Assembly: GCA_022414725.1 (NCBI GenBank)
Contig: CM039462.1
Span: 99,346,579 to 99,410,578, forward strand
Reading direction: 5' to 3'
Origin: Microglena sp. YARC
Lineage: Eukaryota > Chlorophyta > Chlorophyceae > Chlamydomonadales > Chlamydomonadaceae
Length of the DNA stretch: 64,000 bases
Positions within the stretch are counted from its first letter, which is position 1. Each line of letters opens with the position of its first letter. Below the pieces are notes generated by a model. That model made no database searches. It was given only the letters and a program-made list of their open reading frames with translations, and was not told the origin of the DNA. The translations under genes and the position numbers were made by a program. This document shows positions 14,974 to 62,340 of the stretch, one piece after another.

Positions 14974-17900
14974 CTGCAAAAGTCGGGTGAAGTGATTTTA
15001 GTTGAGATTGGCCTGGCTTAGTATGACACATTTTGGGTCGGTGCGGCTCTCTGTGTGGAGTATGATTCGTATTTTGTTATTGTGTTGAGTATTGTTTTAG
15101 GCTGTACCGCCACTGTACCGCCACTGTACAACAGGAATGAAAAGGTTGCAAGCAGAACTGGGGGTTGACGCATTATACAAACAAATGCAGATCCCAAGTC
15201 AAAGGCCATTGGTTCGTTTACCACGGCGAACCACCAATAGCAAAAGCTACTGCACCCACAACCTAGACTAAAGCACCCAACCCTCTTAGAAAGATAATAG
15301 GTGGCGCACTGGTGCCCAGAGTGCTGGTGCCCAGAGCGCACCGTTCGTAACATATATACATTTAGGTTGCAAACAAGAACAGGCAGTGCAGCAGAATGCA
15401 CAAATCAGATATGCGCCAAAGGTGCTCGCATCAATGAGGCCTGGTTGTGTTGTCTGAAGGCGTAGGGTACCGGTTCACCAACAGGCAACGGCCTCAAAAC
15501 AAAATAAATAAATAACAGTCATACATACGTACACATTCCCTGACCACAACATCCCCCCTAGATACAAACCTCATGAGCACATACCTGTTTTATCAGTTAT
15601 AAAAGTAACATAGAAACGTTTGCATTTGTATCTAGTTGTATAAACGCCGAGATGCAAACTTCATGCAGCGAGCACATACCTGTTTTATCAGTGATGAAAG
15701 TAACATAGAAACGTTTGCATTTGTATCTAGTTGTATATACGCCGAGATGCAAACCTCATGGAGTGAGCACCTCCCCGTTTTTGTCAGTTATACAAGTAAC
15801 ATATAAACATTTGCATTTGTATCTAGTTGTATATACGCCGAGATGCAAACCTCATGGAGCGAGCACCTCCCCGTTTTTGTCAGTTATACAAGTAACATAT
15901 AAACATTTGCATTTGTATCTAGTTGTATATACGCCGAGATGCAAACCTCATGGAGTGAGCACATACCTGTTTTATCATCAAGGTGCATGATCCTATTTAC
16001 ATGGTAACATCTGAATTTGTTTTAGAAGATACTTTGATACACGCCTCGTGGAGTTAGCACATACCTGTGCGGCAGTTTAACAGTTGGTGGGCGGTTGAGC
16101 AGACGATCCTTCATGCTCTGATCGTTCTGATCTTCTTCTTTTTTGGATTTGGCAGCACTTGCAGCTTCCGCCTGTGGTGGGGGTGGTGTGTGTGTTTGTG
16201 GTGTGTGTGTGTGTGTGTGTGTGTGTGGTGCCGCTTGTAGTCCTTGACTTGGATTTGACAGCACATGCAGCTTCCGCATGTGCGTGGGTGGGTGTGTGGG
16301 TGGGTAAAGGTGGGTGGTGGGGTGGGGTGGCCGGGTGGGGCGGGGTGTTACGCCTGAGCAGCAAACAACAGCAGTAGAGGGAAGACTGTTCAGGTGTATG
16401 GTCTAGAGTCTTTTGAGGATGATGATTAATGAAATGGCTCCGCTACTATTTCATTTTTGGGCGACACATAGCAGCTTCCTTCCAGCTCCATGAGCCAGAC
16501 ACTGGGTGTCTGGATCAAGCCCAAAGCTTTCAGCTGCATTGGAATGCCTGCCATTTCAGCTTTCAGACACACTAGCTAGCTTCACCGAGATGGGGTCGCA
16601 ACGAGTCGCTCAATTTCCGACACGTCGCACAAAAACAATCAAATACATACATCATCCCACGATCACGTACACTGACAAATATTGAGACGCAAGGCCCATT
16701 TGAGGCAAAGCTTTCAACTGAGCTCAGCACTGGGGTCTCACACTCTCACTGCGTTGCTCAATCTGCAACGCATCGCAAAAAGAAACATGCGCTCTCCTGA
16801 CTGTGACCCTGCCATTCTGATAAGCTGATTCTGACGCTGCCATTCTGATAAGCTGCTTGTGACGCAGTCATTCTGATAAGCTGCTTGTGACGCTGCCATT
16901 CTGATAAACTGCTTGTGACGCTGCCATTCTGATAAGCTGCTTCTGATGCTCCCATTATAATAAGCTGCTTGTGATGCTGCCATTATAATAAGCTGCTTGT
17001 GACCCTGCCATTCTGATAAGCTACTTGTGAAAAAACATTTACTCACCTCCTTGGTATCTCTCACCCCCAACTGACAAACATTGAGAAACAAGGCACATTT
17101 GAGGCAAACTTTCAACTGAGCGACACACTGGGGTCTCAACGCGTTGCTCAATTTGCGACGCATAGCAAAAACAACATACACTCACCTGACTGTGGCCCTG
17201 GCATTCTGATAAGCTACTTGTGAAAGAACATACACTCACCTCCTTGGCGCCTCTCACCCTCATTCTGGATGCCTTCTCTTGATTCTTGGCTCGCTCCCTG
17301 GAATGTGACCATGGTTCAGGGTTAGGGTTTTAGTTACACAAATAGGTAGTTTGTAGTAGATGCATTATGAGATGGGATGGGAGCTACACAATTATCAGCT
17401 CCCATCCCATCCCACAATTACAGAAATAGGTCGGTTGTAGAAGTTTCAGATTAGGTGCAGGACTGTGTTTACTTTTACCCACATTCAGTTAAAGAACTCC
17501 TACTGGGACATACATTAAAGTGACAAGTTGCAGGCAAGATCAGGCAGTGCAACAAGCAGAATGCACTACTATCTTTACTGCAACCTCCAGTGAAAAAACT
17601 CACACTGGGACATACATACATACATACATCTATATATATGTAGACATACATGGATACCTGCAAACTCGCACATGCCGACGCTAGCTGGCTATCGGCTAGC
17701 TTCTTCTTATTAAGGGCGCCTGGAGGCGCGTCCCGAATGAAATGATTCCGATCCTTAATTCAATGTATTTTAATTAATTTAATTGAATTGTATTTAATGT
17801 TGTGTTATTTTAATTCGATTTATTCCTTTCTATTTAATTTAATTAACGTGATTTGAATGCATGTAATTGCTTTAAATTGTATCAATTCGAATTGGATTAA

Positions 17901-20900: not shown

Positions 20901-23900
20901 TGATGATGATGATGGTGATTGTGGTGATGATGATGGTGGTTTTGGTGATGATGATGGTGATTGTGGTGATGATGATGATGATGATGGTGATTGTGGTGAT
21001 GATGATGGTGGTTTTGGTGATGATGATGGTGATTGTGGTGATGATGATGATGATGGTGATTGTGGTGATGATGATGGTGGTTTTGGTGATGATGATGGTG
21101 ATTGTGGTGATGATGATGGTGGTTTTGGTGATGATGATGGTGATTGTGGTGATGATGATGATGATGGTGATGGTGGTGATGATGATGGTGGCTTTGGTGA
21201 TGATGATGGTGATTGTGGTGATGATGATGATGATGGTGATTGTGGTGATGATTATGGTGATTGTGGTGATGATGATGGTGATTGTGGTGATGATGATGGT
21301 GGTTTGGGTGATGATGGTGGTGATTGTGGTGATGATGATGGTGGTTTTGGTGATGATGATGGTGATTGTGGTGATGAAGATGGTGGTTATGGTGATGATG
21401 ATGGTGATAATGGTGATGACAACAACGGGAGTTGAACAACAACATACCTGAGGATCATTTTCTGGCAGCTGCTGAACTTGTCAACGAAAGTTGTGATCGC
21501 TGCCCAGAATTCGGTGTCTGCATGGAGGATTGAGACAGATGAAGTATGTGAGCGAGTCAGAGGGATATGTGCTGCATTTATAGGACAAGGGACACATAAA
21601 TTTGAGCAGGAACCACAGACCCATCGAGCACACCTCATGTCCTATGCTGGTATATACCGACTGGGGAATACACCGTGGGTTGGTATATACCAACTGGGAA
21701 TAATTTTATTTTATGTTATTGAATTACACATCTTTCATTGGGGATGCGCTTGCAGGCGCCACTGACAAGTGTTTATTGGAAAGGCAGGTAGATGACTGTG
21801 TGGGTGGGTGGGGATGGGGTGGGGCGGGGTGGGGGGAGGGGGAGTGCTAGGAGAGAAGGATTGTGGGAGGAATGGTGGGATATTGACAGGTTATGATGAG
21901 TAAGTGAGGGTGTGAGCTATGGGCATACAAGGGAAATCTGAATCTACTACCATCACCCATACCACCACAGCTACCCTCCCCGCCCACGCCCCTCCACCTT
22001 CACCCCTGATGTACATTCACACCTGAGCTTGCGCTGTTCAGGTTCTCCCCACAGTACGCCAGGAGCTGCACATACTTCTTCTGGACATCCTCCTGCATCT
22101 CGCGAACCTCTTCTAGAGAGGTCTCAAGCTTCGCCAACTCAGCTTCCATCAGCTCCTATGTACACATTGTTTGGTGTGTGTGTGTGTGTGGTGTTGTGTG
22201 TGTGTGGTGTGTGAATGGTGTGTGTGTGTGTGTGTGTGTGTTTGTGTGTGTGTTTGTGGTGTGAGTGTGTGTGGGTGTGTGGGGGGTAAAACGAGAGGGG
22301 ATGTGGTGGAGAGGAGGGAACGAGCACTACTGGAGGATGGGGGGACAAAGAGGGGATCTTGATCCAAGAGTGTGCTGAAGGGGGGCCTACCAGGTAGAGA
22401 GGGAGCTTCCATCAGCTTCCATCAGCTCCTATGGGTAAAACGATTTCCAGAGTGTCCCTGGAAAACTGATACGAAAATGCCGGCTTATAAACTGCCTGCT
22501 TACTTATAAACTGCCTGTTTACTTATGAACTTATGAACTTAAAAACTGCCTGCTTATAAACTGCCTGTCTACTTATAAACTTATGAACTGCCTGCTTATA
22601 AACTGCCTGCTTACTTATAAACTCGCGAACTGCCTGCTTATAAACTGCCTGCTTACTAATAAAATCTATAACTTATAAACTTATAAACTGCCTGCTTGCT
22701 TATAAAGTTATAAAGTGCCTGCTTATAAACTGCCTTCTTACTTATAAAGCTATAAACTGCCTACTTATAAACTGCCGGCTTACTTGTAAACTTATTAAGT
22801 GCCGGCTTATAAACTGCCAGCTTACACTGGCTATCTCCTTTTAGAGCTTTGACACACTATTTGACTAAAATCACCCGTCTACTGTCACGGCTTAATTAAA
22901 TTTTCACAATAGCACAAACTCAGGGACCCCGTGGATAAAACGATTGTTTGGGGTTCAGTTCAGCAATGCTTTTCCTCTAGCCCTTCCTGTCACGGTTGGT
23001 CTAGTCCCTTAAGCCTATTTTGCCCACCCCTGGACTGGAACATACATGGCCTGGGTGTAGCAGACGCCCACAAGATGGAATCATTCACAAAACACTGTTT
23101 TGCACAACGCGTTGGTGGTCGCTTTCGTACTTTTGTATGTTGACAGTCCAGGGGTAGCCGAATAGGCTAAAGAGACTTGCCTAACCTTCAAAGCAGGAAA
23201 GGCAGTTTAAGAAACAAGCACTGGTGAACTGAACCCCAACAGGAGGCGCACTTGCTTGGTAGGGCACCAATGCGCTCATATACCACCATCGTTGTCAACT
23301 AAACGCGTTTGGTCGTTGTCAACTAAACGCGTTTGGTCGTGGGTTGGTATCTCTCACCAACCCTAAGTGCGCCTACTTTGCACATTGTAGGAGTGGCACC
23401 ACCATTCAAACTGAATCCTCTGTGTCGCTGGTTTGTGTCGGGAGACCCACCTCCTGGGGTGAAAGTCCTTTCACAACTAACTCAAAAAATAACTATTGCC
23501 TTTGTATGAAGCATGCCGTCCAAACGCCCTTGTCAATGATATTTGCAAACTGTGCATGTAGATACAATCATGAACCACAGTTTGACGGTTTTTTCGTTGC
23601 GTAATATAGTATACGCCTCGATTTGACAGGTGCTCCAGTCAAATCAAGGCGTTCAATTTTGCTGTCAGTGCGGTACGTATACAATCACCAGCCACCCAGA
23701 AAGCACCCACCTTGTATTTGCTGTCAGTGCGGTACGAATACAATTTTGCTGTCAGTGCGGTACGTATACAATCACCAGCCACCCAGAAAGCACCCACCTT
23801 GTATTTGCTGTCAGTGCGGTACGTATACAATTTTGCTGTCAGTGCGGTACGTATACAATCACCAGCCACCCAGAAAGCACCCACCTTGTATTTGTGTACA

Positions 23901-26900
23901 CACCAACTTGCTTCATAAAACCCCAGCACTAAAACCACCACCACCAGCACACCACCACCACCACCACCACCACACTTCCTACACATCACAACTTCCTACA
24001 CCACCCACCTTGTATTTGTGCGCACACCAACTTGCTTCATACAACCCCAGCACTAAAACCACCACCACCAGCACACCACCACCACCACCACCACACTTCC
24101 TACACACCACAACTTCCTACACCACCCACCTTGTATTTGTGCACACACCAACTTGCTTCATAAAACCCCAGCACTAAAACCACCACCAGCACACAACCAC
24201 CACCACCACCACCACACTTCCTACACATCACAACTTCCTACACCACCCACCTTGTATTTGTGCACACACCAACTTGCTTCATACAACCCCAGCACTAAAA
24301 CCACCACCACACCACCACCACCACCATCACACTTCCTACACACCACAACTTCCTACACCACCCACCTTGTATTTGTGCACACACCAACTTGCTTCATACA
24401 ACCCTAGGACTAAAACCACCACCACACCACCACCACCACCATCACACTTCCTACACACCACAACTTCCTACACCACCCACCTTGTATTTGTGCACACACC
24501 AACTTGCTTCATACAACCTCAGCACTAAAACCACCACCACACCACCACCACCACCATCACACTTCCTACACACCACAACTTCCTACACCACCCACCTTGT
24601 ATTTGTGCACACACCAACTTGCTTCATACAACCCCAGCACTAAAACCACCACCACCAGCACACCACCACCACCACCACCACACTTCCTACACATCACAAC
24701 TTCCTACACCACCCACCTTGTATTTGTGCACACACCAACTTGCCTCATTCAACCCCAGCACTAAAACCACCACCACCACCACCACACCACCACCACCACA
24801 CTTCCTACACATCACAACTTCCTACACCACCCACCTTGTATTTGTGTACCCACCAACTTGCTTCATACAACCCCAGCACTAAAACCACCACCACACCACC
24901 ACCACCACCACCACCATCACACTTCCTACACACCACAACTTCCTACACCACCCACCTTATATTTGTGCACACACCAACTTGCTGCATACAACCCCAGCAC
25001 TAAAACCACCACCACCACCACACCACCACCACCACCACCATCACACTTCCTACACACCACAACTTCCTACACCACCCACCTTGTATTTGTGCACACACCA
25101 ACTTGCTGCATACAACCCTAGCACTAAAACCACCACCACACCACCACCACCACCACCACCATCACACTTCCTACACACCACAACTTCGTACACCACCCAC
25201 CTTGTATTCGTGTAAACACCAACTTCCTTACGCCACCCAGCAAGCACCCACCTTGTATTTGTGTACACACCAACTTCCTTACGCCACCCAGCAAGCACCC
25301 ACCTTGTATTTGTGTACACACCAACTTGCTTACGCCACCCAGCAAGCACCCACCTTGTATTTGTGTACACACCAACTTCCTTACGCCACCCAGCAAGCAC
25401 CCACCTTGTATTTGTGTACACACCAACTTCCTTACGCCACCCAGAAAGCACCCACCTTGTATTTGTGTACACACCAACTTCCTTACGCCACCCAGCAAGC
25501 ACCCACCTTGTATTTGTCACTACTGGAAGCTTCCTCCTTATCGTCGCCGTCACCGTCCTCAGGGGAATCAACAATGGGGTGATAGGTCTCAAGAAAAGAG
25601 CGGATCTCCTCCACTTGGACCACCGCAGCAGCTATAGTATCTGCTACGTCGGAGTGGCTAACCTGTGGTGGTGGTGTGATGGTGTTGGTGTTGGTGTTGG
25701 TGTGTTGGTGCTGTGATGGTGTTGGTGAAGGGGGGAGGGTTCGATTTGGTTCTGGGGTTGGTTGGTGGTGGTTGTAGTGGATGCTGATGTTGTCGGTGGC
25801 TAACCTGTCGTGGTGTTGTTGTTGCTGGTGTTGTTGTTGTAGGTGTTGCTGTTGGTGTGTTGGTGCTGTGATGGTGTTGGTGAGGGGGGGAGGGTCGGGT
25901 TTAGGTTTCGAGGTTGGTACCTGGTGGTGGTGGTAGTGGATGCTGATGTTGTTGGTGATTAGTCCACAGTGCAGAGCACCAGCCCGATGATCAGTTCCCA
26001 TTCCCCGCCACTACTTTTGGCAGCTAACTAAGTGTAAAGCATGAAGCATTCCAAGCCACACAAAATCAGATTCGGGGTTTCTGGTTGATAGGTATCAAGA
26101 AAGGCGCGGATCTCCTCTACTTGGACCTCTGCAACAGCTATTGGATCTGCAACGTCAGAGTGGCTAACCTGTGGGTGTTGGTGTTGGTGTTTTGCTGGTG
26201 TTGGTGGTGGTGTATTGCAGGTGGTGTGTTGATATGTTGGTGGTGTGTTGGTGCTGGTGAGGGGGGAGGATTGGGTTTTGGTTTTGGGGGTGGTACCTGC
26301 CCGACCTGCAAAGCATCAAACATTAAAAGCCAACAGAAAAGGATTTAACAACGGGTTTATAGTTGTCAAGAAATATCCGCATAACCTCCACTGGGACCCT
26401 GCAGCAGCTGCAGTATCTGCTTCCATCATCATTATCATCATCATCATCATCAGCGCTACCATCATCATTATCCTTATCATCATCACCAACATCACTATCA
26501 TCATCATCATCAACATCATCATCATCATCATCAGCACTATTATCACCATCGCCATCATCATCATCGCAATCATCATCATCAGCATTGTTATCATCATCAT
26601 CAGCAGCGGCAGCATTGCTATCATCATCATCATCAGCAGCAGCATTGCTACCATCGCCACCATCATCATCGCCCTCATCATCATATGATCATCATCATTA
26701 TTTAAGTAGCGCACCTTGAGTCTGGCATCCATGAAAAATCATCTGCCCAAATATCCCCCCCCCCCCCCCCCCCCCCCCCCCCCTTCATCGTCAAGCAGCT
26801 AGTATTCAAGCAGGGCAACTTGAGTTTTGCATCCAAAAAGCCTCCCATCTGATCTGCCAGGAGGCGTTCATCCTCTGTCATGATCTCGTCGATTTAGTTG

Positions 26901-29900
26901 TAGTTTTTGAAATTAATGTATGCTATATTTTAAATTTAGTATTTAGTGTTTTTTCATTCATCCAGCTAGATTCAGCATTTATATTAATTTGAGCTAGTAT
27001 TTAATATTTACTTAGGCAGCGCACCTTCAGTCTAGCATCCAACAGACCTCCCATCTCATCGGCCAGGAGGCGCTTATCCTCATTCATGATCTCGTTTATT
27101 TATGTAGTATTTTTTAATTGATGTGTGCAACATTTTATTTAGCTTTAGTGTCTTTCATTTATTCAGCCAGATTCAGCATTTATATTCATTTTAGCTAGTA
27201 TTTAGTATTTAATAAAGTAGCGCACCTTCAGTCTAGCATCCAACAGACCTCCCATCTGATCTGCTAGGAGGCGCTCATCCTCTGTCATGATATCGTCGAT
27301 TTATGTAGTATTGTTAAGTTATCTATGCAATAATATTTCTTAATTAGCATTTTTGTAGCATTTGGTGTTTTTCAATCATTCAGCATGTATATTTATTTTA
27401 GCTAGTATTTAGTATTGACTATAGCAGCGCACCTTCAGTCTAGGGTCCAACAGGCCCCCCATCTCATCAGCCAGGAGGCGCTCATCCTCTTTCATGATCT
27501 CGTCGGCAAGAACCTGCACAGGACAAGCACATCAAGATTCTAAGTATAATATCATATAGATATATCGATGTCTTGTATTGAACTGCAAGCTTGGGCAAGT
27601 CCCCTAGGCCTACTGGCAAGTCGGTGACATACATACACAAAGTGGTCCAGTGCTATACATGTGATATCACAGAACCTGCACAGGAAAGGAACATCAGTAT
27701 TCCAAGGGCATAGGGTTGGTATGGCTCCTGTTCCACTATTGTTAATGTGCACAGGAAAGGCACATGAAACAAGAAGGTGCTCGTAAAACAAGGAGGAGCT
27801 CAATCTCTTACTTAATCTCGTCGGCAAGAACCTGCACAGGAAGGGAACATCAGCATTCCAAGGGCGTTGGCAGGGCTATTTTTTCAAACCTGCAAGTGGT
27901 TTTTTTTCTCATAAAACAAGTAGGTGCCCATTCTCTTTCACGATCTCGTCAGCAAGAACCTGCACAGGAAGGGAACATCGGTATTCCAAGGGCATAGGGT
28001 TGGTAATGCTCCTGTTCCACTATTGTATATTATTTATATGCACAATAAAGGCACATGAAACAAGAAGGTGCTCATAAAACAAGTAGGTGCTCATTCTCTT
28101 TCGTGATATCGTCAGCAAGAACCTGCACATGAATGGAACATCAATATTTCAAGGGAATAGGCAGGGATTTTTTTCAAACCTGCAAGTGGGTTTTTTCTAG
28201 CTTTATGGTTTTAAGCCTCCTCCAGCGACAGCGTTTTAGTGCCTTAGTAGTTTTTTAAAGCTTTTATAGCCTTTTTAGCTTTTGAGGGCCATTTAGGGCA
28301 GGAATACAAAATATTTGTTTTATATTTGTATAGTAATAATTTTGCCAAAACGGGGTAAAAACTAGCGATCGTTATACATTGCGGAAAAAGCCCTTGGCAT
28401 AGGTTTGGTAATGTTCCTGTTCCAGTTTTGTAAACCTGCACAGGAAAGGCACATAAAACAAGAAGGTGCTCATAAAACAAGTGGTTGCTCATTATCTTTC
28501 ATGATCTGGTCGGCAAAAACCTGTACATGAAGGGAACACCAGTATTTCAAAGGCAGAGGGTGGGTAATGCGCCTGTTCCAGTTTTGTAAACCTGCGCAGG
28601 AAAGGCACATGAAGATTTATATAAAAACAAGTAGGTGATCAGTCTCTTTTATGATCTTGTTGTGCAGAACCTGCACAGGAAGGGCACCAGTTTTTAGTTT
28701 TTTCAGATTTCTTTCAGCCAGGTTGAGTAGCTGCTTGAGCTTCTCTTAAATAATGATTACAGGATTGCTGCGTAGCCATCGCAAGGCGGAGCAAGAAGCG
28801 GGCGGGAGGCAGTTCGGGGGGCTCATGCGTCGCCATGCGACGACAGAATGGCAACGCTGTGGCAACGCTTTGTCGGGGAAAAAGTGCTGCACAGGAAAGG
28901 CAAATCAATATTTTAACGGCATCCGCCAGGAGGCACTCATCATCTTTCATGATCTCGTTGGCAGGAACCTGCATATGGCAAGCACATCAAGATTTCAAGC
29001 ATAATATCATAAGATATATCTATGTCTTGTATTGAACTGCAAGCTTGGGCAAGTCCCCTAGGCCTACTGGCAAGTCGGTGACATACATACACAAACTGGT
29101 CCAGTGCTACACATGTGACATCACACATTCTCAGCACTTATAGAGTGGTCTTCCCATCAGTGCTCTTTACATTTACAAGATTGGGCAATTCCCTTAGGCC
29201 TACTTGCAAGGCTGTGACATACATACACAAACTGGTCCAGTGCTAAAGATATGACATCTGACCTGCAAGAGTGTGGTCTCTATAACATCTCAAGAGCAAA
29301 ATATTGGTCTTACCATCAGTGCGCTTGGCAACTGCAAGCTTGGGCAAGTCCCTCCGGCCTACTTGATTACCCCTGGACTGTAACGTACATACAAATACTG
29401 GTCCAGTGCTACACCTTCACCAGCAAGACCACTGACCCGCAAGAGCGTGGTCTTGCCACAAGTGTTTTTTGCATTTACAAGATTGGCCGAGTCCCTTATG
29501 CCTACTTGCAAGGCTGTAACATACATGCACATGCTGGTCCAGTGCTACACCTTCACCTGCAAGACCACTGACCCGCAGGAGTGTGGTCTTGCCACCAGTG
29601 ACTGTACTGTATTGTCACCAGTGCTCATGCCACCAGTGACTGTACTGTATTGTCACCAGTGCTCATGCCACCAGTGACTGTACTGTATTGTCACCAGTGC
29701 TCTTGCCACCAGTGACTGTACTGTATTGTCACCAGTGCTCTTGCCACCAGTGACTGTACTGTTTTGTCACCAGTGCTCTTGCCACCAGTGACTGTACTGT
29801 ATTGTCACCAGTGCTCTTGCCACCAGTGACTGTACTGTATTGTCACCAGTGCTCTTGCCATCTGTACTCTTTGCATCTGAAAGCTTGGGCAAGTCCCTTA

Positions 29901-30658
29901 GGCCTACTTGCAAGGCTGTAACATACATACCACATACTGGTCCAGTAATACACATGTGACATCACACATTCTCACCTGCAATAGAGTGGACTTCCCATCA
30001 GTGCTCTTTGCGTCTGTTAGCTTGGGCAAGTCTATCCGGCCTACTTGCGAGGCTGTGACATACATACAAATACTGGTCCGGTGCAACATACCGGTATATG
30101 ATATCTCACCTGCAAGAGAGTGGTCTTCCCATCAGTGCTCTTAGCATCTACCAGCTTGGGCAAGTCCCTCCGGCCTACTTGCAAGGCTGTGACATACAGA
30201 CAAATACTGGTCCAGTGCTACAGATATGATATCTCACCTGCAACAGAGTGGTCTTCCCATCAGTGCTCTTAGCATCTGCCAGCTTGGGTAAAGTCTTCAG
30301 CCGGAACCCAAGTGCCCCGCCGTTTCTCGTCCCGAAGTTGATGAAATTGCCAGCATCTAGTGCAGCACGCAGCGTGGCCTTCAACATAGCGCTCTCTCGC
30401 ATCTGTTTAAGAGCCAGTAGGTTGGTTGCCAACACCTGGAAGGACAGGTATATATGCCATCCTGAGTAAATAGGGTATAAGGCAGTCACAGCACCGGTAG
30501 GCCAGGTAAATATGGGTCACATTGAGGACAGATAGCAAGGACAGCAATAGATGCAGATTACAGCCTGGCCTTCAACATCTCTCTCTCTTTCTCACTCTGG
30601 TACACGGCGTTACACAATTTAATTGCAGTCCAGCCACTCAGTACTCAAACACACAAAA

Positions 30659-33700: not shown

Positions 33701-33921
33701 AGGTAAACAAATAAATAGGCATCTTGTGTACCTGCGTACGAGCATATGAGGTAGGTAGGTAAACAAATAAATAGGCAACTTGTGTACCTGCGTACGAGCA
33801 TAGGAGGTAGGTAGGTAAACAAATAAACAGGCATCTTGTGTACCTGCATACTAGCATGTGGAATGGCGTATTGGAGGCTGAGATTTTTTTGCAGTGAGGG
33901 CTTAAGAGATTTGCTGTCAGG

Positions 33922-33998
<77 letters not shown>

Positions 33999-35904: not shown

Positions 35905-35996
<92 letters not shown>

Positions 35997-36111: not shown

Positions 36112-36146
<35 letters not shown>

Positions 36147-38658: not shown

Positions 38659-38689
<31 letters not shown>

Positions 38690-47439: not shown

Positions 47440-47471
<32 letters not shown>

Positions 47472-47883
47472 CCAACTGCACCAGTCCACGGACTAGTGCA
47501 TCCCCATCCAGGCATGCCTCATCAGCGCATCCCTCCCATCCATGGGCTCCTGCCGTGACACAGGACGGGAGGGGGAGCTTGCAGACTATGCGGAGGGGGT
47601 GCATGTACCTACAGCCACTCCACCCCCACCCCTCCCCCACCCTACAGGCACTCCACTCCACTTCACCCTTCCCCACCCCCACCCTACAGCCACTCCACCC
47701 CTCTCACCCCCACCCTACGGCCACCCTACTCCCCCACCCAACTCCACCAGTCCACGTAATAGTACATCCCCATCCAGGCATGTCTCACCAACGTATCCCT
47801 CCCATCCATGGACTCCTGCCGCGACACAGGATGGGAGGGGAAGCTTGCAGACTACGCAGAGGGGGTGAATGACCCTACCCCCC

Positions 47884-47914
<31 letters not shown>

Positions 47915-50900
47915 ACACCCTACCCACCCCTACAGCCCCCCTACCCCCAACTGCACCAGTCTACGTAATAGTACATCCCCATCCAGGCATGTCTCACCAA
48001 CGTATCCCTCCCATCCATGGACTCCTGCCGAGACACAGGACGGGAGGGGGAGCCCGTAGAGTGGCAAGAGGGAGTGCACGAGCCTGATATGTTGTCTCCC
48101 CTATCACTGGCGTCGGGCGTGGACTCCCCGGCATGGGAGGAGCAGGCGCCCGCGACAGCTTGAGCGTGTACGCCGCCAGTGAGGTGAGCCAAGACTGCTT
48201 CTAGCCACAGCTTGCGATCTACTGCGTTGTTGCAAGCCAGCACCCACCTGCCATGGATCACAAAAACACAAAAACTATTATATATACATAGTTTTAATTA
48301 ATACGCGTTGTTGCAAGCCAGCACCCACCTGCCATGGATCACAAAAACACAAAAAATATTATGTATACATAGTTTTAATTAATACGCGTTGTTGCAAGCC
48401 AGCACCCACCTGCCATGGATCACAAAAACACAAAAACTATTATGTATACATAGTTTTAATTAATACGCGTTGTTGCAAGCCAGCACCCACCTGCGATAGA
48501 TAACAAAAACACTGAAATTTTGTTTGTATTATTAATACGAGTACATATCAAGTATACTTATTTGTCTGTGGGACCACACACTGACGTGAGCCAGGACTGC
48601 TTCCAGCCACAACTTGTGGTCTCCTGCGTTGTTGCAAGCCTGCACCCACCTGCGATGGATCACAAAAACACCGAACTTCTGTTTGTTATTATTAATACGA
48701 AATGAGTACATATCAAGTATACTGATACTAATTTGTCTATGGGCCCAAACGGCTAGGTGAGCCAAGACTGCTTCCAGCCACAGCTTGCGGTCTGCCACGT
48801 TGTTGCAAGCCTGCAACCACCTGCGATGGGGCACAAAAACACAGAAACTATTATACATATTAAAATTGTTTAATTAATACACATTGTTGCAAGCCTGCAT
48901 CCACCTGCCATGAAGCATAAAAACACAGAACATTATATATGTATGTAATATATTTTAATTAATACGACATGAGCATTAAATCAAGTTTAATAATTTGTTT
49001 GTTTAATAACTTTTTTTTATTTAGGCGCATTGTTGCAAGCCAGCACCCACCTGCGATGGATCACAAAAACACAGAACCTTTTTTTAATTGTATTAACTCG
49101 AAATGGGTATTATATCAAGTATGATCATTTGTCTATGGGCCCACGCAGTGAGGCTAGCCAGGACAGGTTCTAGCCACATCTTGCAGTCTGGAAAGCTGGT
49201 GCGCGCCAGCACCCACCTGTGAGGGAGCAACCAAACATATCATACAACATAAGTATAAATGTCCATTTATCCAGATTTACTCGTAAATTGAAGTCATAAA
49301 CATGTTATAAAAATTGGCCACGGGCACGTGGTAACAAGTGGCAAATTGGCCACGGGCACGTGGTAACAAGTGGAAAATTGGCCACGGGCACGTGGTAACA
49401 AGTGGAAAATCATTTTTTTGGCGGAGCCCCCAGGATCACTGAGTTGTCCGTCTGTCCGTGCGCCCATCCAACCTTACAAAGCCAAGTAACCCTGGCCCTA
49501 ACTGTCTCGTGAGCCTTGGCCCCTGTCAGCTGCACTCAACTCTGTTGCCACCTGTTGCTCCAATAACAAACACTCTCCGCAAATTTTCCATGTCGCTCGA
49601 GAGGATTTGTGTGTTTCATTATTGCGATACGCTTTAAGCATTAGCTTCTTCGTTTATCAAATAGCATGTGCTTTTATTGGGGCTTTTCCAATTCACCATA
49701 AGTATTCATAAGTATTTATAAGTATTCCAATTCCATTTTCCAATTCACCATAAGTATTCATAAGTATTCATAAGTATTCATAAGTATTCATAAGTATTCA
49801 TAAGTATTCATAAGTATTCATAAGGAAGATTACTACCAGCAACAACATTACTGGCTACACACCACACCACACCACAACATCACAACACCAACAAAACACC
49901 AACACAACAACAAACAACAACACAACCGTCACAGCTCAACATATGCTTGTCAGCTTGCGCGTCACTTTTTTCCGTTCGTCGTGTTGCAAATTGAGCAGCT
50001 TGATGCAACCCCAGTGCAATGCGCTGCCCCCAGGCATCGCGGGGTTCGGGGGGGCATTTCTGACTAGGTTAGCCAGACGCATGCGTCGCCATGCAGCGAC
50101 AGAAAGGCAACATGACGCACACAATACTTTATGAGCTTACAACACTTTACTCCAAACCAGTCTCAATTAAAGGGCACCTTTTTTTGTTAACACCAACACT
50201 AAGACAAACACTAAGACAAACACCTTTTTAACACCAACACTAAGACAAACACCTTTTTTACAACACCAACACTAAGACAAACACAGCACAAAAGTTTCAA
50301 TCAAAGCACACCTCTATGTGTCAGCAAACGGAGCGTGAATTTGAATTTGAATTTGAAAAGCGCACCTCTTCGTGTCAGCAAACAGAAGCGTGGATTTGAA
50401 TTTGAAAAGCGCACCTCTTTGACTCAGCAAGCAGAAGCGTGAATTTGAATTTGAATATGAAAAGCGCACCTCTTTTTACCAGCAAACAGAAGGGTGAATT
50501 TGAATTTCCCATTTTCCTCCAATATATCCTGTAGAAAGGTCAACAACAGGTGCAGAAAACAGTCAGATAGTAGGATAATGAGACAAATACAGCATGGGGT
50601 GGGGTGGGGGTGGGAAGTGGGTGGGTGGGTGGGTGGGTGGGTGGTAAGGGTCAACAACAAGAGCAGCATGCAGTGAGATAAGAGGAGAATGAGACAGGTA
50701 CATTTTGCTGCAGGGGTGGGGGTGGCTAAGTGCCTGGGTGTGTGTGGGGTGTGTGTGGGTGTGTGGGTGTTGGTGTGTGGGTGAGGGTGTATGTGTGTGT
50801 GTGGGTGGGTGGGTGTGCGGGTGTGAGTGTGTGTGTGTATGGGGGGGTGTTGGTGGGCGTGGCTGTGTGTGGGGGGCAATCCTCCCTTCCTATTCTACAC

Positions 50901-51947: not shown

Positions 51948-54900
51948 TAGTTGTGGTGGTGTGTGAGTGGTTGGGGGGTGGGGGGGAGACAATCCTCCCT
52001 TCCTATTCTACACCACATGTATTACTCCTTCCAGCACGAGAGCCCGCGAATGCACTTGCATATCGCAAAGCACTGACCAGGCAAATGCAGAGCCGTGTCT
52101 TCCACTCCGAACACATAGTTCAACTTGACAGATCAGGCACTAGCGTACAATCTTGATACCCCAAAGCTCCCCTGTAAACCTGATCCTCTGCACATATTCC
52201 TAAGCCTATTGTGAAGTTGATTTCGAGGCTCATGACCAATACTCCATCAGGTATAACCCCCCCAGGGCTTTTTTCCCCCGCTACCTACGGCGATCGCTAC
52301 CTAGGACCCCACTTTGGCCTAACCTTCCACTACCTGGAGACTCCGCTATCCCGATCCCAGGGCCCCACCGTTCTGATCCCCGGGCCTCGGTCATACCGAT
52401 CCCCGGGACCTGAGCATACTGATCCCAGGCCCTGATCAATCCAATCCCAGGGACCTGCTAGTCTGATCCCTGGGCCAGTGAGCCAAATCAGTATCCGGAG
52501 CCCACTCTTGACAGACACCAAATCCCTGATTGCCACCAGAAGCCCCCCTTTCTGAAACGAAAAAGACGGGGGACATCTCTGCAATCCTCCATAGACCCTG
52601 CTTCTTCCTTTATAGCTCATCCCCCAGTTAGTGGTCTATGGTAGCAGCCCATGACTAAGTTATTTTTAAGGAAATGAACCAGTGTCATTACGCATCCCCC
52701 CAAAGCTCTGGCCTAGCACAACAAAATCTCCATGGTACACAATGTAGCACTTATTAGTAACACCTTCATTAAATGCCTGCTCACGACCCCAACTCCCCAC
52801 GGCCCCCCAAATTGACCCCCAAAGCTCTAGCCTAGCACAACAAAATCTCCATGTTACACAATGTAGCACTTATTAGTAACACCTTCATTAAATGCCTGCC
52901 CACGACCCCAACTCCCCACGGCCCCCCCAAATTGACCCCCAAAGCTCTGGCCTAGCACAACAAAATCTCCATGGTACACAATGTAGCACTTATTAGTAAC
53001 ACCTTCATTAAATACCTGCCCACGACCCCAACTCCCCACGGCCCCCCCAAATTGACCCCCCAAAGCTCTGGCCTAGCACAACAAAATCTCCATGGTACAC
53101 AATGTAGCACTTATTAGTAACACCTTCATTAAATGCCTGCCCACGACCCCAAGTCCCCACGGCCCCCCCAAATTGACCCCCCAAAGCTCTGGCCTAGCAC
53201 AACAAAATCTCCATGGTACACAATGTAGCACTTGTGCTACAAGTAACACCTTAAATAAATGCCTGCCCATGACGCTAACTCTCACATGGGTATATGACTG
53301 ATTTGGTGGTTGGCTCCAGTGCAAGCAAACGGGCTGGCCCCCTCAACTTCAAGCCCCGTAATAAGGTGTACGATTTATTTATTTATTTATGTGTGCATTC
53401 ATATGTATTTCCATAGGTGCCTAAGTCAGACCCTGAGTGATACAGATGGATTGAGCCTATGCCCTTAAGTCAAAACACAAAAGTGTTTTGCCAATAAGTT
53501 GCCCAACCACATCAGTTCAACACAAAAATACTCGGATTTGGTTTTTCTCAAATGGTGGGAACCAGGTCATGTGAAACATGCTAATTTGTTACTATGGGGT
53601 TCCCTAAGTCCATACGGGTTTTACGCATGAAGTGATACGGAGCCTATCGCGACCGAAACAAGCCATTTTAAAAGAACACCAGGTAAAAATGTTGTGTAAC
53701 GTCTTTCCCTGCCAGTAGTTATTACAGAAGGTCTTGGAAGGCAGTACACAGGCAGCACAGTTGAGTACGTACCCCAAAAACACTGATTATTTACATTTCG
53801 TGGGTGTCCTAAGTCTAGGTCAGAGCTGCACAGCCTCAATTGAAACATTTTGGGCCTCAGGTTTCCTCTACCTTGAGATATAGCGTGGAGAACAACTTAT
53901 TTTTTTTATTCAAAAATTTCAAATATTTTTGAAAATAATGTCAAAGAACAAACTTGTTTTTAGTTGCCTTCAAACATCCACTTCTGAACTCAGTTTTTGT
54001 TTTGGATTAGATCATTGAAAACACACCCTAATCCTGGGCCATGGTGTGGTAGGCCACTGGGAGGTGAAATCTTGAGATGTACAGCTATTTCAGTAGATTC
54101 CTAGGACAAGGCTGAAGCGCAGCCTCCGACCTTGTAATAGAGGTTCGATAAGCCTTTCTTCCCGAGGTACCTTTCTTCGGAATAGCTCGCGCGGCCTCGT
54201 ATATGACGCTAAGTGGATTTGTATCACTAAGTATCGCACATCTGATGTACTGCCACCGACCAGATGCGAACGCGGACGAAAAGTAGCTGCGCGCATAGCT
54301 GACACCTTCGCGAACAATATGAGCCAGACAGAATTCGATTCCGAGCAGTTGAGGTCATGTACGGCTCTGTATCATGCTTGTATCGACTTAGGGCGTTTTC
54401 GGACTAAGGCACTTATGGAGATATGTATTCTATCAAATGTGATTGTGATATTATATCTTATATCTTATATATTACTATTTATTTATTTATTTATTTATGC
54501 ATTTATTCATTGATATGAGAGAGTGACTTACCAGCACTTTGCAACCAGCAAGGCGGGCCACACGATCAGGCGGCGCATCCCCCTGCTACAGGGACAAGGT
54601 TTAAGGCACAAATGTTAGCCATACAAAAAAGATAATGCCTTGAGGGGCGTGGTGTTAAGGGGACCCTCCCTTACGCCGTAGCTGGGGAAATTCACCATTA
54701 CAATGTTAGCCATGCTTCACTCAGATTTGAACAAATATGAAGATGAAACTAAATAATTGTGTAACGCACGATAATGCAGCACTAATTAACCCGTTTTGAC
54801 AAATGGCTCAATGGCACAGCTCCTTTAACGTAGAGGGTGCCAGGTTTGAATCCCCACGGATGCACTTTAGTGTTTGCGGTCGCTGTCAACTGCCATGGTA

Positions 54901-57371: not shown

Positions 57372-60300
57372 GTAAGTTTGAACGGTTGCTGACTATGACT
57401 GCGCGATGCGCGGGGGGAGGAACCCAAGCTTGCGCGCCTCGCAATGCGATCCAGAATCGTGCCTGCCATAATTATCGATTGAAACATCCAATGCCTGGAG
57501 ACAGATGATTGGATTGGACTTGGTTGTTCCATGGTTATCCGCCAACTCTCGGCTGTTCACCTTCTCCCGATTCCAAGTCCCCCCCATGCGATATTATCCC
57601 CATTATTATCACAGTAAACTGGGAGCATACAAAGTGGATTAGACAGTTTAAAAGCTTGTTCAGGTCTGGGGACTGATGGGGGGGGGGCCCTAGGAGATGT
57701 GGGGGCATTTGGGGAACCTGTCATCAACCTATTTTGAACCCAAGATTGTGCACAAACACAGTTTTTAACAATGCATCAGAGAAATCACAGAGCTTCACGA
57801 TTGGCTCAACCACCAAGTTGTTCGGGGAACAACTGACCAAACTACATGCTCTCAGGTTGCCATGCAGCAAGGCTATGTACATTTCCGGCAAATATTTTGG
57901 AAATGCCTCAGAGGTTGGTGACTGGCTCTACCACCATATTGATCGGGGAACGCTTGACTGCACCTTTCTCCTGGTGGCCATGCAGCAAAACTATATCTTG
58001 CCAGATACTTCACCAAATACTTAAGATATGTCACCGAGCTTCATGATTGGCTCTACCAATATCTTAGTCGCTGGACTTTGACAAAACAACTTGTTGCCTG
58101 GTGGCCTTGCAGATAGGCTATGTCTTGTCAAATACTTTAGACATATTTATTTTCAGGCTACAAGCACCAGCTTCTAGGTAGCTCCTCTTCCTGGCTATTC
58201 AGCCTAACCCAAGGCGGGCTAGTGGACCTAGAAGCCAGCATAATCGCTTTTCTAGCTCTGCTGACATGTGTGGGGTTTGCCCGATGGCTGGCTCAGGGAG
58301 CTACCTAGAAGCTGCTGATCATAGCTGAAAATAAAAACACTGACTTCAGATGTGTCTCAAATGTTATGGCTGGCTCAACCACCATATTGGTCGCTGGAAA
58401 TTTGACAACGCAACTTGCTGCCCGGTGACCATGCAGGTAGGCTATCCCTTGCCAAATACTTTAGATATGTCTCAAAAGGTTCACGACTGGCTCAACCACC
58501 ATCTTGGTTGATTAAAATTGACAACACTACATACATTACATTGTCATCAACAGGCCATTGTTGACCCAAGATAAGCCCGCTCCACAACATCTGGGGGGGG
58601 GGGTCTTCCAACTAATCCTCAAAATTAGATCATTATGCAGTCTTCCAGCAAGCAAACAAACACAACTTGCTGCCCCGTGACCATGCAGGTAGGCTATGTT
58701 GTGCGAGTGAGGAAGCTTTGGTGTGAGAAGGAGATGAAGGAGCAAACTGCTGAACGACGTACAAAGAAATTAGTGGAGGAAGCTGTATGGAAGGGAGTGC
58801 TTAAAAGTGCAGGTAAGCAAGCACGGAGCAACCAATGAGGTCAATAGTGACTGTTGATATAGCTTACTCATCCCAGATTGTCTCTTGTGATAACTTTACC
58901 ATGCCAAACAAACAAGCAAGCAAACACACTTGCAAACATATAAACAGACAGATAGACAGACAGATAGATGGACAGACAGATACACAAACAAACATACATA
59001 TAAACAAACATACAGGATGACAGATGGATGGGCAGGCATACAAACAAACAAGATAACAAACTAACGTACTTAAAATGTTTAAACAAACAGACAGACAGGG
59101 AGATGGGCAGACAAACAAATGGGACAATGTCAGGCCATGGGACACTGTTTCTCTTTTCTGCTACTAGCAGCAGCTTCTAAGCAGCTCCCTGAGCCAGCCA
59201 CTGGGCTAAGCCTCAAAAATTAAGCAGCGCTAGAAACTGATTATGTCAGCTTCAAGGTACACTAGGTTGCTTTAGGTTTGTCTGATTTGCCAGCTAGGGG
59301 AGCTGCCTAGAAGCAGCTGATCGTAGCTGAAAAGAAAACAATGCCATGTGCATGCAGACTATCTTCCACATTTACAAACCAAAGAAACCAACCAGCCAGC
59401 CAACCAACCGCTTTGCTGATTATACAGGAGACGCATCTGACAAGGATTTGGAATTCGTGACCGACTACCTCGCACCCTTGCTGGGACCACAGGCTGTCCA
59501 TCCTGGGGTAAGACGATGAGCAGGCTCCTGCTGGGGGTGGGCAAGGAAAGAGGTTAGATAGGTGCAAGAGTGAGCGTCTGGTGCTGGGAGTTGGGTGGGG
59601 TGGGGTTGGTGGTGGTGGTGGTGGTGGTGGGGGGGGGGGGGGGGTAGTTGTGCTGGGCGTGGTGGGCTGTATTGTGGGATGGAGGTGAGGGGGTGGCAGG
59701 ACACCTTTGTTGGATCACAGGCCGTCCACCGCCCAGGGCTAAGCAGAAGAGCAGGCTCCTGCTCGGGGTGGGCAAGGAAAGAGGGTGTCGAGGGCGCACG
59801 AGTGAGCGTCTGGTGCTGGGGGGGAGGGGGGGGGGGGGGGGGTAGTTGGTGCTGGGGCGTGGTGGGCTGTGTTTGTGGGATGGAGGGGAGGGGATGGCAG
59901 AACACCTTTGTTGGATCACAGGCCGTCCACTGCCCAGGGTAAGCAGAAGAGCAGGCTCCTGCTGGGGATGGGCAAGGAAAGAGGGTTTAGATAGGTGCAA
60001 GAGTGAGATTCTGGTGCTGGGGGGGTGGGGGGGGAATGTATTTGGTGCTGGGGCGTGGTGGGCTGTGTTGTGAGATGGAGGGGCGGGGGGGCAGGACACC
60101 TTGGCTGGGATCACAGGCCGTCCACTGCCCAGGGGTAAGCAGAAGAACAGGCTCTTGCTGGGGTGAGCAAGGAAAGAGGGGCGCACGAGTCAGGGTCTGG
60201 TGTGTGGGGTGTGAGGGGGGGGGGCGTTACAGGCAAAATTGAGATAGCTTGTAAAGATAACTTTCCCTAACCTTATCCCATGACCATTCCGTCTGCATAG

Positions 60301-61897
60301 CCTCTAAGCTCTGTATGTATGCATGTATGATACAGCCCAGGGGTAGCCTACTAGGCAAAAGGGACTTGCCCAAACTCAAATAATCAATAACATGTATGGA
60401 TTAACATGAGAGGCAGAGCTCTACTCAACACTGTCCCTCTGTTGCAAGTGGTGGCTTCTGAATGGGCCTTCAAGCACTGTTTTTCTTTTGGGCTACGAGC
60501 AGCAGCTTCTAGGCAGCTTCCCTGACTGGCTACTCGGCCAAATCTGGCACAACCTCGAGCACCTTGATGCTGTCATAACCAGCTGTCCAGAAGTGCTGAA
60601 GTGCTAGTTCAGTGCAGCCCAGTGGCCGCCTCAGGGAGCTGTCTAGATGCTGCGATGAAAAGCCGGACAGAAAAACCCTACCATCAAGTTATGGGGTTAG
60701 AGACCTCCGGGTTCCTTCGTTTAGGATTTGATTGTGGTTCAGTTCACCAGTGCTTGTTTCTTAAACTGCCTTTGCTGTTTTAAAAGTTGGGCAAGTCCCT
60801 TAAGCCTATTTGGCTACCCTTGGGCTGTACAAATACATACATGCATATGGGGTGAATCAAATTAGCTAGGGGAGATATCTATCCATAGCCTCCCTCTACT
60901 TGCTAAGACCCCCCCCCCCCCCCCCCCCCAAAAAAAAGGCACCCTAATACAAAAAAAAGGCCCTAAAAACAAAAATCCCTGAGTGGAGGTATCAACCCTA
61001 ACCTAGCTCCTCTCGTCACTGCCTCCCAGGTGCAAGTGGTAGCTCCTGAAGGGGCCGTCAAATTTCTTGAGAACATGGGTGTGATCAGCCGGGGCAAGGA
61101 TGATCCAGCTGTTGATTACCCAGCCTTGCTGCTCCCAGACCACACGGTCTTCAGTCCTACAGGTGTGTCCTCACTCCAAACGCAATCATTTCTGATGAGT
61201 AGGCACTGTTTGTTTCAGTGTAATGCGGCTCAATTTGCGATGCTCTGCCCCCCGAACCCTGCGAGTGTGAAGCGCCGAGCCCGGGGGGTTCCAGGGTGCA
61301 TTTCTGACTTGTTAAGCCGAACCCATGGGTTGCCATGCAGCGACGGAATGGCGACATGTCGCACAAAACAAATAGTGTGAGTAGGGCGCCTTTTGGGGGC
61401 CCTGATGAGTATTGTATTGTTGTGTTGTTCACTATAAAATACATATATGCTCATGCTATCTGATACAATTCATATTGTTGCATGCCTATGAGTAAAAAAC
61501 CCTGAACTTCAACACATAGTGTAGTACATTGTGGTATACCGCTGCATTAGCCCTTTGTACAATTTGATGTTGTCCACCTTTCCCCAAGAAATGTCAGCTT
61601 TCTGGTGGTGGTGTGTGTGTGTTGGGGTGGGGGGGGTGTAGGGGGGGTGGGGGGAATAAATTTCTTTGACCGCATCATAGGAAGTTTGTTGTTTTCACCC
61701 CTGAGACCCCCCCCCCCCCCCTGCTCCCCTGTCCAGCTTTCCCCAAGGGATGGAAGCCTTCTGGGGCCACTATATGCGTCGAGCTGAAGCCCAAGTGTGG
61801 CTTCATGCCCTCTGACTGCCCTTACCTGGCCCCCGAGTCAGAGATCAAGAGGACAGTGCCCCGATTTGCGATGCATCAGGTCCTGAAGAAATCCGAG
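57237..61897 (+). CDS. IPK1: inositol-pentakisphosphate 2-kinase, 5' half (gene-level entry, continues past the window)
   Basis: IPK1 phosphorylates the 2-position of inositol pentakisphosphate to make phytate (InsP6). Five exons in perfect phase give about 211 residues: the N-lobe (WKLKGEGNANIILSYVG, VGYVVRVRK), the 'LAPLLGPQAVHPG' segment, and the diagnostic CVELKPKCGFMPSD with RFAMHQVLK. Family members are typically about 450 residues, so the C-terminal half should lie beyond 64 kb. Introns hold junction-derived tandem arrays and three MITEs. Confidence 0.9.
57770..58688 (+). repeat. tandem array of the IPK1 exon 2 acceptor edge
   Basis: About six units of 100-130 bp repeat GATTGGCTC.ACCACCAT, GGTGGCCATGCAG and TAGGCTATGTCTTG.CAAATAC. 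The last two blocks are the exon 2 acceptor and first exon bases. A MITE interrupts the array at 58142. Confidence 0.88.
58142..58342. mobile_element. hAT-type MITE of the AGCTTCTAGG family, with TSD
   Basis: Outer ends CATATTTATTTTCAG and the inverse of CAGTGTTTTTATTTTCAG. Flanked by ACTTTAGA and ACTTCAGA (8 bp, 7 matches), where uninterrupted repeat units read ACTTTAGATATGTCTC, so the insertion site is visible. Confidence 0.82.
58689..58812 (+). CDS. IPK1: IPK1 exon 2
   Basis: Acceptor ccatgcag, donor GTAAGC (58813), 124 nt, phase 0 to 1. It encodes VGYVVRVRKLWCEKE, the beta-strand with the likely ATP-site lysine or arginine pair, then a charged helix (EQTAERRTKKLVEEAVWKG). Confidence 0.9.
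58920..59100. repeat. (ACAG)/(ACAA) tetranucleotide block
   Basis: AACAAACA and ACAGACAGATAG repeats. Frames across it are artefacts. Confidence 0.85.
59143..59343. mobile_element. hAT-type MITE of the AGCTTCTAGG family
   Basis: CACTGTTT.TCTTTTC.GCTAC ends in inverted orientation. Flanks CCATGGGA and CCATGTGC are compatible with a decayed 8-bp duplication. Confidence 0.75.
59428..59507 (+). CDS. IPK1: IPK1 exon 3
   Basis: Acceptor tatacag, donor GTAAGA (59508), 80 nt, phase 1 to 0. It encodes GDASDKDLEFVTDYLAPLLG then PQAVHPG. The 'V...L.PLLG...v..g' pattern is typical of IPK1. Confidence 0.9.
59508..60190 (+). repeat. tandem array of the IPK1 exon 3 donor edge
   Basis: Three further copies (about 59697, 59895, 60100; spacing about 200 bp) repeat GGATCACAGGCCGTCCACTG then CCCAGGGGTAAGCAGAAGAG, i.e. 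exon end plus donor, with G-rich spacers. Confidence 0.9.
60325..60840. repeat. dispersed GGGGTAGCC.A.TAGGC repeat pieces around a MITE
   Basis: A plus copy at 60330-60380 and a minus copy at 60725-60830 flank the MITE at 60475-60680. Confidence 0.6.
60475..60680. mobile_element. hAT-type MITE of the AGCTTCTAGG family, with TSD
   Basis: CACTGTTTTTCTTTTGGGCTAC left end. Flanked by CCTTCAAG (60467-60474) and CCATCAAG (60681-60688), 7 of 8 matching. Confidence 0.75.
61030..61162 (+). CDS. IPK1: IPK1 exon 4
   Basis: Acceptor cctcccag, donor GTGTGT (61163), 133 nt, phase 0 to 1. It encodes VQVVAPEGAVKFLENMGVIS then DYPALLLPDHTVFSPT, corresponding to the IPK1 'vd...aLLl.DhtlF' strand. Confidence 0.9.
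61210..61380 (+). repeat. dispersed repeat, GTTGCCATGCAGCGACGG family
   Basis: GTGCATTTCTGACTTGTTAA and GTTGCCATGCAGCGACGG match the copy at 49990-50125. In IPK1 intron 4. Confidence 0.6.
61737..61897 (+). CDS. IPK1: IPK1 exon 5 (signature exon)
   Basis: Acceptor gtccag, weak donor GTTTGT (61898), 161 nt, phase 1 to 0. It encodes TICVELKPKCGFMPSD, then RTVPRFAMHQVLKKSE. EIKPKxGF and the RF.MHQ.LK motif are the family hallmarks, forming part of the inositol phosphate and nucleotide site. Confidence 0.94.
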
Positions 61898-61938
61898 GTT
61901 TGTGATTCGCGCCTTACATTATTTTTAATTATTTTGCT

Positions 61939-62340
61939 CAAACCCAAGTGTGGCTTCATGGCTTCTGACTGCCCGAACCTGGCCCCAAGTCAGAGATCAA
62001 GAGGACAGTGCCCCGGTTTGCGATGCATCAGGTCCTGAAGGAAACCGAGGTGTGTGATTTGTGTCATACTTTTTTTGCTCAAGCCCAAGTTTGGCGCCAT
62101 GCCATCTGACTGCCCTAACCTGGCCCCAAGTCAGAGATCAAGAGGACAGTGCCCCGATTTGCAATGCATCGGGTCCTGAGGGGAACCAAGGTATGTGATT
62201 AGCGCCTTACATTATTTTTATTTTATTTTGCTGAAGCCCAAGTTTGGCTTCATGCCTTCTGACTGCCCTGCCCTGGCCCCAAGTCAGAGATCAAGAGGAT
62301 ATTTGCGATGCATCAGATCATGAAGAAAAACGAGGTGTGT
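61939..62340 (+). pseudogene. three decayed tandem copies of IPK1 exon 5
   Basis: Copies at about 61939-62049, 62082-62191 and 62236-62333 repeat CCCAAGTGTGGCTTCATG through ATGCATCAGGTCCTGAAG. All lack one base in the GGCCCCCGAGTCAGAG stretch (they read GGCCCCAAGTCAGAG), which shifts the frame. The third also lost part of the middle. Each is preceded by a T-rich run ending near AAG/CAAG and followed by GTGTGTGAT or GTATGTGAT. Confidence 0.92.

Follow-up and report, generated by a model that had tools for sequence, protein, structure and literature searches.

How introns grow is usually told through transposons. The locus described here raises the question of why the introns of two adjacent genes are instead occupied by tandem arrays whose units contain the edge of the neighbouring exon, and whether these arrays lie at exon edges for a reason other than chance. 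The window, that is, the whole stretch of 64,000 nucleotides of Microglena sp. YARC DNA that was analysed, holds a formin gene on the minus strand (50.5 to 16 kb) and an IPK1 gene on the plus strand (57.2 to 61.9 kb). An earlier interpretation made from the letters alone (hereafter the sequence-only reading) had proposed that a process duplicating exon-intron junctions fills almost every intron of both genes and thereby lengthens them.

The junctions were defined on gene models, the formin being modelled as exons E1–E17 (with its FH1 part, E6–E7, as one block) and IPK1 as I1–I5, which together give 41 splice junctions and 19 introns. A Pfam FH2 match runs across the spliced formin exons E10–E16 (E 8e-55; positions 2–353 of 372; 0 stops), and a match to PF06090, the IPK1 family, runs across spliced I1–I5 (E 1.1e-24; 0 stops). 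The closest solved-structure relatives of the latter include 4axc and 2xal, which we take to be Arabidopsis entries. Stop-free spliced translations were obtained for E1–E5, E8–E9, E10–E16 and I1–I5, and these enclose 15 of the 19 introns. The phases of the E9 donor and the E10 acceptor disagree, the position of the E9 donor is uncertain, and one exon is probably missing from the model between the E16 donor and the E17 acceptor. The domain order of the formin is unusual (36444–41000, minus strand), with a weak PH-domain end and a GBD-like N-terminal region at its start. This region is followed by a long proline-rich block that carries coding tandem repeats of its own, E8 includes sequence similar to further armadillo-type repeats, and E9 includes a second proline-rich block ahead of FH2. 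Six FH2-protein peptide patterns scanned against viral contigs gave no match.

Copies of each junction were searched with an ungapped 32-nt sequence spanning it (16 + 16 nt), within 6 kb on either side and at a threshold of at least 23/32. By this measure 26 of the 41 junctions have a copy, which lies on the intron side in every case. When two lopsided windows were added, a copy was found by any of the three for 32 of 41 junctions; 31 of these are counted, the E10 acceptor being left out because its single copy lies just beyond its own intron. At a threshold of at least 24/32, with all three windows run over the entire 64 kb and both strands, 30 of 41 junctions have a copy. The adjacent introns contain 113 copies in direct orientation, the opposite strand has two, which both belong to the low-complexity E5 donor junction, and for none of the 41 junction windows was a same-strand copy found at this threshold outside the adjacent intron in the 64 kb (where the model gives no far intron end, as at the I5 donor, adjacency was defined as the first 1,500 nt towards the intron). 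The repeats are therefore tandem arrays, arranged head-to-tail in one orientation at one locus according to TRF and to the 113 direct copies among 115. They are also exon-intron-boundary repeats, since their units cross the boundary at 26 of 41 junctions by the 16 + 16 window and at 30 of 41 by the stricter threshold. Insertion in trans or from RNA fragments is disfavoured, since at this threshold no same-strand copies occur outside the own intron in the 64 kb.

At least one junction copy is present in 17 of the 19 introns and a TRF-detected junction array in 13, four introns being nearly filled; the assertion that such arrays fill almost every intron is thus too broad. The 51 intronic arrays consist of head-to-tail units of 17–284 bp in 1.8–20.6 copies with 57–100 percent matches, and 27 of them include a junction, representing 14.3 of 19.6 kb of summed length (permissive TRF, overlaps counted twice).

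In the formin, where all junction copies and arrays are on the minus strand, the E1 donor carries an array at 50303–50507 (about 53-bp spacing, 38/59 exon nt, 3 copies). Eight copies of the E2 acceptor lie at 48220–49216, and the E2 donor array (47082–48085; unit of about 256 bp, 88 exon nt, 4 copies) abuts the E3 acceptor array (46561–47081; 44-bp unit, 34 exon nt, 11 copies). The E3 donor array occupies 45298–46036 (135-bp unit, 48 exon nt, 5 copies), and E4 is accompanied by three acceptor copies with 10 exon nt (43934–44480) and by a donor duplication (43429–43713; 133-bp unit, 93 exon nt). The acceptor array of E5, or exon f, spans 42370–43121 (133-bp unit, 88 exon nt) and bears, at its distal end within these bounds, an additional exon edge without an acceptor. 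Three acceptor copies of E6 (41124–41910) are followed by the acceptor arrays of E8 (37658–38085; unit of about 178 bp, 44 exon nt) and E9 (36761–37343; 135-bp unit), and by the E9 donor array (35294–36517; unit of about 190 bp, donor position uncertain). A 77-nt match to eukaryotic 18S rRNA (Rfam RF01960, model 1036–1112) lies at 35858–35934 on the plus strand, inside the E9/E10 intron in the region of the E9 donor array.

Further along the same gene, the E10 donor array is found at 33997–34451 (unit of about 155 bp, about 26 exon nt) and the acceptor array of E11, or exon k, at 33318–33860 (56-bp unit, 9 copies, 12 exon nt). The donor of E12, or exon l, has eight copies besides the functional one, mostly with about 74 exon nt (31092–32534). 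The E13 donor array (29848–30295; unit of about 130 bp, 58 exon nt) is accompanied by more copies at 29134–29293. E14 has eight acceptor copies by the three windows (27671–28970) and a donor array with a 201-bp unit and 73/81 exon nt in the unit (26803–27505). Acceptor copies of E15, or exon o, lie at 25666–26170, one of them with 86 exon nt at 26168, and its donor arrays cover 23654–25517 with units of 87, about 121 and 51 bp. A 17-nt core of this donor occurs 20 times at no more than two mismatches, the functional site included, where 0.05 occurrences are expected. The E17 donor array, at 15574–16068, has a 96-bp unit with about 4 exon nt.

In IPK1, on the plus strand, three copies of the I2 acceptor with 9–11 exon nt lie at 57867–58699, a donor array of I3 at 59472–60227 (unit of about 195 bp, 35 exon nt) and a donor array of I5 at 61783–62347 (unit of about 145 bp, with 115/161 exon nt in two of three copies). 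Most of the examples on which the sequence-only reading had relied, namely the eight exon l ends, the 133-bp exon f array, the roughly twenty exon o donor copies and the IPK1 exon 2, 3 and 5 arrays, were recovered; the exon k array was recovered too, but its unit is 56 bp and not the 48 bp given. Directly past the I5 array, a large higher-order array with 40-, 78- and 176-bp periods covers 62390–63998; it shows no known exon edge, but the window did not yield the next IPK1 exon. A young 121-bp array with 95 percent matches, at 52696–53281, lies upstream of both gene models, possibly as the array of a 5' exon absent from them.

Longer introns hold more junction copies (Spearman 0.65, P 0.004, for 18 introns with the 5.85-kb one omitted; 0.47, P 0.04, for all 19), and the shortest introns, of 414, 574 and 615 nt, have 0, 1 and 0 copies. 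Four introns consist almost entirely of arrays, with 86–182 nt of non-array sequence (permissive TRF), and, with each array reduced to a single unit, collapse to 206–345 nt under permissive or 223–358 nt under default TRF settings; the median after collapse is about 1 kb. The collapsed lengths of these four are near the median intron lengths of 198–343 nt given for six core-Reinhardtinia algae in the available part of the source, values that may not fit this organism (PMC8226300).

We consider it reasonably probable that these introns grew by local duplication across exon edges and unequal exchange, both tolerated by the genes, with the rate near the edges raised as well. Strictly local, same-orientation duplication of edge-straddling segments, with units mostly of 44–284 bp, would have enlarged the introns of both genes, and unequal exchange or slippage would then have turned the duplicates into arrays. 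The exon-contiguous splice site would remain the functional one because the rest of the exon is present only there, so that a junction-spanning duplicate would cost nothing, and duplications inside the exon would be removed by selection. Ancestral introns were probably short relative to the units, so that many of the latter would have had to cross a junction; short ancestral introns are an assumption within this account. The duplication rate near the exon edges of these transcribed genes was probably raised too, by an effect of unsettled size. The copies, their orientation, their locality and the unit sizes behind the duplication account are direct observations.

The density of arrays differs along the window, with coverage of 44–50 percent in the formin, 23–26 percent in IPK1, 12–19 percent at 50.6–57.2 kb and 4–8 percent at 1–15 kb (ranges reflect TRF settings). 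The two latter stretches count as non-genic solely in the sense that no gene model was built in them. The 50.6–57.2 kb stretch may hold 5' formin exons, and the first 15 kb, probably intergenic and small as a control, contains a Copia-like element and otherwise few arrays. The remains of this retroelement (4617–7283, plus strand) comprise a Pol beta-barrel match and a below-cut-off zinc knuckle in one open frame (Pfam), and a Pfam search of the frame next to it gave no match. The difference between the first 15 kb and the formin counts against the duplication account, as a uniform neutral rate predicts otherwise.

Within the genes, array coverage at no more than 16 nt from a junction is 0.62, and coverage of intron positions is 0.63 in the formin (0.59 complexity-filtered) and 0.41 in IPK1 (0.37). 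It stays at 0.58–0.64 out to 800 nt from the junction and then falls to 0.16 past 1,600 nt. At present-day lengths, with complexity filtering, 22 of 31 formin junctions are array-covered compared with 0.58 of intron positions (P 0.10), under a null that is length-biased in that each copy counts. Weighting by inverse copy number lowers the formin expectation to 0.26 (P 1.5e-7); IPK1 alone gives 3 of 9 (P 0.14). At present-day lengths, junctions therefore do not stand out.

Pure geometry offers a possible, though less probable, alternative. Random tandem duplications would have struck transcribed genes with introns of about 100–200 nt, and most units longer than 80 nt would therefore have had to include a junction, exon edges being in no way special. 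To gauge this, arrays with units of at least 40 bp were thrown randomly on introns of a set earlier length and junction crossings were counted; a second array at the same junction in one intron was counted once, the E17 and I5 donor arrays were excluded as lying outside the listed introns, and the E16/E17 intron was omitted. The observed crossings, 20 of 23 arrays with default and 20 of 22 with permissive TRF settings, are matched at an intron length of 150 nt, where 18.5 of 23 (P 0.27) or 18.8 of 22 (P 0.32) are expected. The claim that chance landing is impossible was therefore too strong, even if an excess does appear under most placement models. Two further observations agree with geometry: the exon share of the unit is uniform, and arrays confined to introns have small units, as predicted (median 27.5 compared with 135 bp). 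Against it, agreement is lost as the assumed introns lengthen, with 16.5–16.8 crossings expected at 198 nt (P 0.04–0.05), P 0.011–0.013 at 229 nt, and 11.7–12.0 expected at 343 nt (P 5.5e-5 to 8.5e-5). Array-poor introns of this locus measure 414–615 nt, and the median collapsed intron of about 1 kb is longer still. With introns collapsed to one unit per array, 6.6–7.0 crossings are expected where 20 of 23 and 19 of 21 are observed; with the E16/E17 intron included, the 20 of 24 observed compare with 6.1 expected (non-array sequence plus one unit each) or 9.4 (non-array sequence only). The same figures weigh on the duplication account as well, since non-array intron lengths lead to only 6–9 of 21–24 junction arrays expected against 19–20 observed. 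Random placement is enough only if introns were about 150–200 nt when the units formed, and a moderate excess of arrays at exon edges is likely. The sequence-only reading of a junction-duplicating process that lengthens introns retains some force, in that units straddle edges beyond most placement models and introns with more copies are longer.

The anatomy of the units bears on a further alternative, in which the process is delimited by the splice site itself. An exon stretch of variable length, the splice site and a few intron nucleotides (mostly fewer than 30) would be copied to the neighbouring intron while the gene is transcribed or its RNA spliced, for example through an R-loop or a spliceosome-stalled fork, after which exchange would make arrays. 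We regard this as doubtful. The exon part of the unit, measured by anchored extension from the junction, is 4–115 nt (best copy per family, 32 families) and is constant within the simple arrays at the E3 acceptor, E3 donor and E5 acceptor. The exon fraction of the unit is uniformly distributed (KS P 0.48, 15 arrays); the splice site therefore does not define where the unit breaks on the exon side, and the notion that arrays start at exon borders has to be given up. These random exon-side breaks, together with the lack of a printing direction, speak against delimitation by the splice site.

The distal ends of the arrays speak for it. Among the 15 arrays that could be measured, 12 have an outermost copy that includes exon edge and splice site but lacks a full spacer behind them. 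Plain duplication of a junction unit should end after a full spacer, and the pattern is a point against the favoured duplication account. The distance past the last splice-site copy is 5–90 nt in those 12 and no more than 26 nt in nine of them. Over all 15 arrays its median is 18 nt, and relative to unit length it departs from uniformity with KS P 0.004, a post hoc value for a pattern noticed after looking. In the E2/E3 intron the outermost donor and acceptor copies are separated by 16 nt (47060–47110, minus strand). By eye, the outermost exon edge of the E5 acceptor array ends about 2 nt or less from the expected acceptor; anchored extension, however, runs 32 nt past that position, and the arrays at the E4, E10 and E13 donors end as plain duplication predicts. 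If ancestral introns exceeded about 200 nt, junctions are crossed more often than random placement predicts, which also favours a splice-site-delimited process. The end pattern comes from hand-entered values for 15 of 32 families, the other 17 having been omitted for an incomplete similarity chain or a single short copy; the E5 acceptor distance was set to 16 (the middle of 0–32), and the distal copies at the E13 and E14 donors were picked by the TRF array end. Moreover, interior deletion could trim distal spacers, as could later exchange. As a separate observation, the copies of the E2 exon end and E3 exon start in mid-intron give the impression of a deletion that removed the intron interior up to the splice sites. 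It is likewise improbable that a process tied to splicing or transcription, with one breakpoint within a few tens of nucleotides of the splice site, is the main lengthener of introns in this genome.

Returning to local duplication with unequal exchange, the divergence among copies indicates how the arrays behaved after they formed. Divergence shows no consistent trend as copies lie farther from the exon, rho being positive in 7 of 14 families, and printing from the functional junction was rejected because the rank gradient is inconsistent. Copies at the E5, E9 and E11 acceptors are 0.00–0.02 apart from each other yet about 0.1–0.29 from the functional edge; amplification therefore continued inside the arrays.

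Selection could also have kept the copies as functional ladders of splice sites, serving alternative, decoy or recursive splicing or U1 binding along long introns, an explanation we hold to be very unlikely. On first inspection, GT or AG is kept in 45 of 54 donor and 58 of 70 acceptor copies, where 32 and 48 are expected from the flank mismatch, and, with gaps counted, 14 of 15 arrays show higher pairwise identity in the splice core than in the spacer. Both signals were weakened, and the candidate of a conserved splice core or retained GT-AG dropped, when copies were found by exon sequence only or gap columns were removed. In copies found by exon sequence, the splice dinucleotide matches at 0.74–0.77, between the exon window (0.85–0.88) and the intron flank (0.59–0.67). 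Between adjacent non-functional copies, with gap columns excluded, pooled substitutions per site are 0.108 in the exon-derived part and 0.115 in the spacer; the exon part is the less diverged in 10 of 15 usable families (P 0.11), out of 17, the E3 acceptor and E1 donor having no usable pairs. After both corrections, the splice signals of copies in the arrays of this window are not conserved above neutral, and in the E3 donor array GT has been lost in 3 of 5 copies. The divergence supports the view that the extra splice-site copies are probably neutral by-products that drift at the spacer rate, and the decoy or alternative splice sites seen in them by the first interpretation find no support. 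The reading frame stays open for more than 100 codons through the arrays at 3 of 18 acceptors (E3, E11 and E15) and at 0 of 18 donors. At the E3 (46595–47236, minus strand) and E11 (33330–34031, minus strand) acceptor arrays it is open for 214 and 234 codons upstream; therefore an upstream acceptor, if used, would not in every case lead straight to a stop.

An assembly artefact, in which repeats were expanded or mis-joined by the assembler, is scarcely credible: young arrays such as that at the E3 acceptor (98 percent matches) are hard to size, but the flank mismatch to the functional junction is at least 0.10 in 28 of 32 families across both genes, and assembly error makes no diverged copies.

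These results matter for several reasons. Most TRF-detected intronic array DNA of both genes derives from the introns' own junctions, and intron growth becomes directly readable and testable in one genome. In addition, with its dozens of near-identical splice sites competing in each gene, the locus amounts to a natural experiment; such arrays would also trouble splice-aware gene annotation in like genomes. In the titles and abstract beginnings of a part of the matching open-licence papers, arrays of junctions across the majority of a gene's introns were not described.

Minisatellites and satellite DNA in introns form a general class, with which the present arrays share head-to-tail units of similar build (17–284 bp, 1.8–20.6 copies) and from which they differ in that 27 of 51 hold the neighbouring exon's coding sequence and splice site. 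Introner elements, which have been reported in algae, likewise cause bulk growth of intron DNA; here, in contrast, no shared mobile family was seen in the 64 kb when junction windows were compared at a threshold of at least 24/32. In intron gain by tandem duplication, as set out in the accessible portion of the source, a segment with splice signals is also duplicated and the protein is unchanged, but there a new intron arises between the copies, whereas here existing introns apparently lengthen (Rogers; PMC4974935). That mechanism presupposes an intron missing in the ancestor and formed from a duplicated exon segment with AGGT. In the E2/E3 intron, by comparison, donor copies precede acceptor copies. 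A close parallel comes from human duplicated genes, for which the available part of the study describes internal tandem repeats at exon-intron boundaries, with 27 intron modifications among genes in segmental duplications, and names unequal crossing-over and slippage as their source (De Grassi and Ciccarelli, 2009; PMC2812944). As in those repeats, to the extent that the source describes them, tandem units at exon-intron boundaries change the extent of introns; unlike them, the arrays reported here affect 26–31 of the 41 junctions in a pair of adjacent genes and make up most of their intronic array DNA. The finding is a striking form of a known change, boundary tandem repeats, and its extent is unusual.
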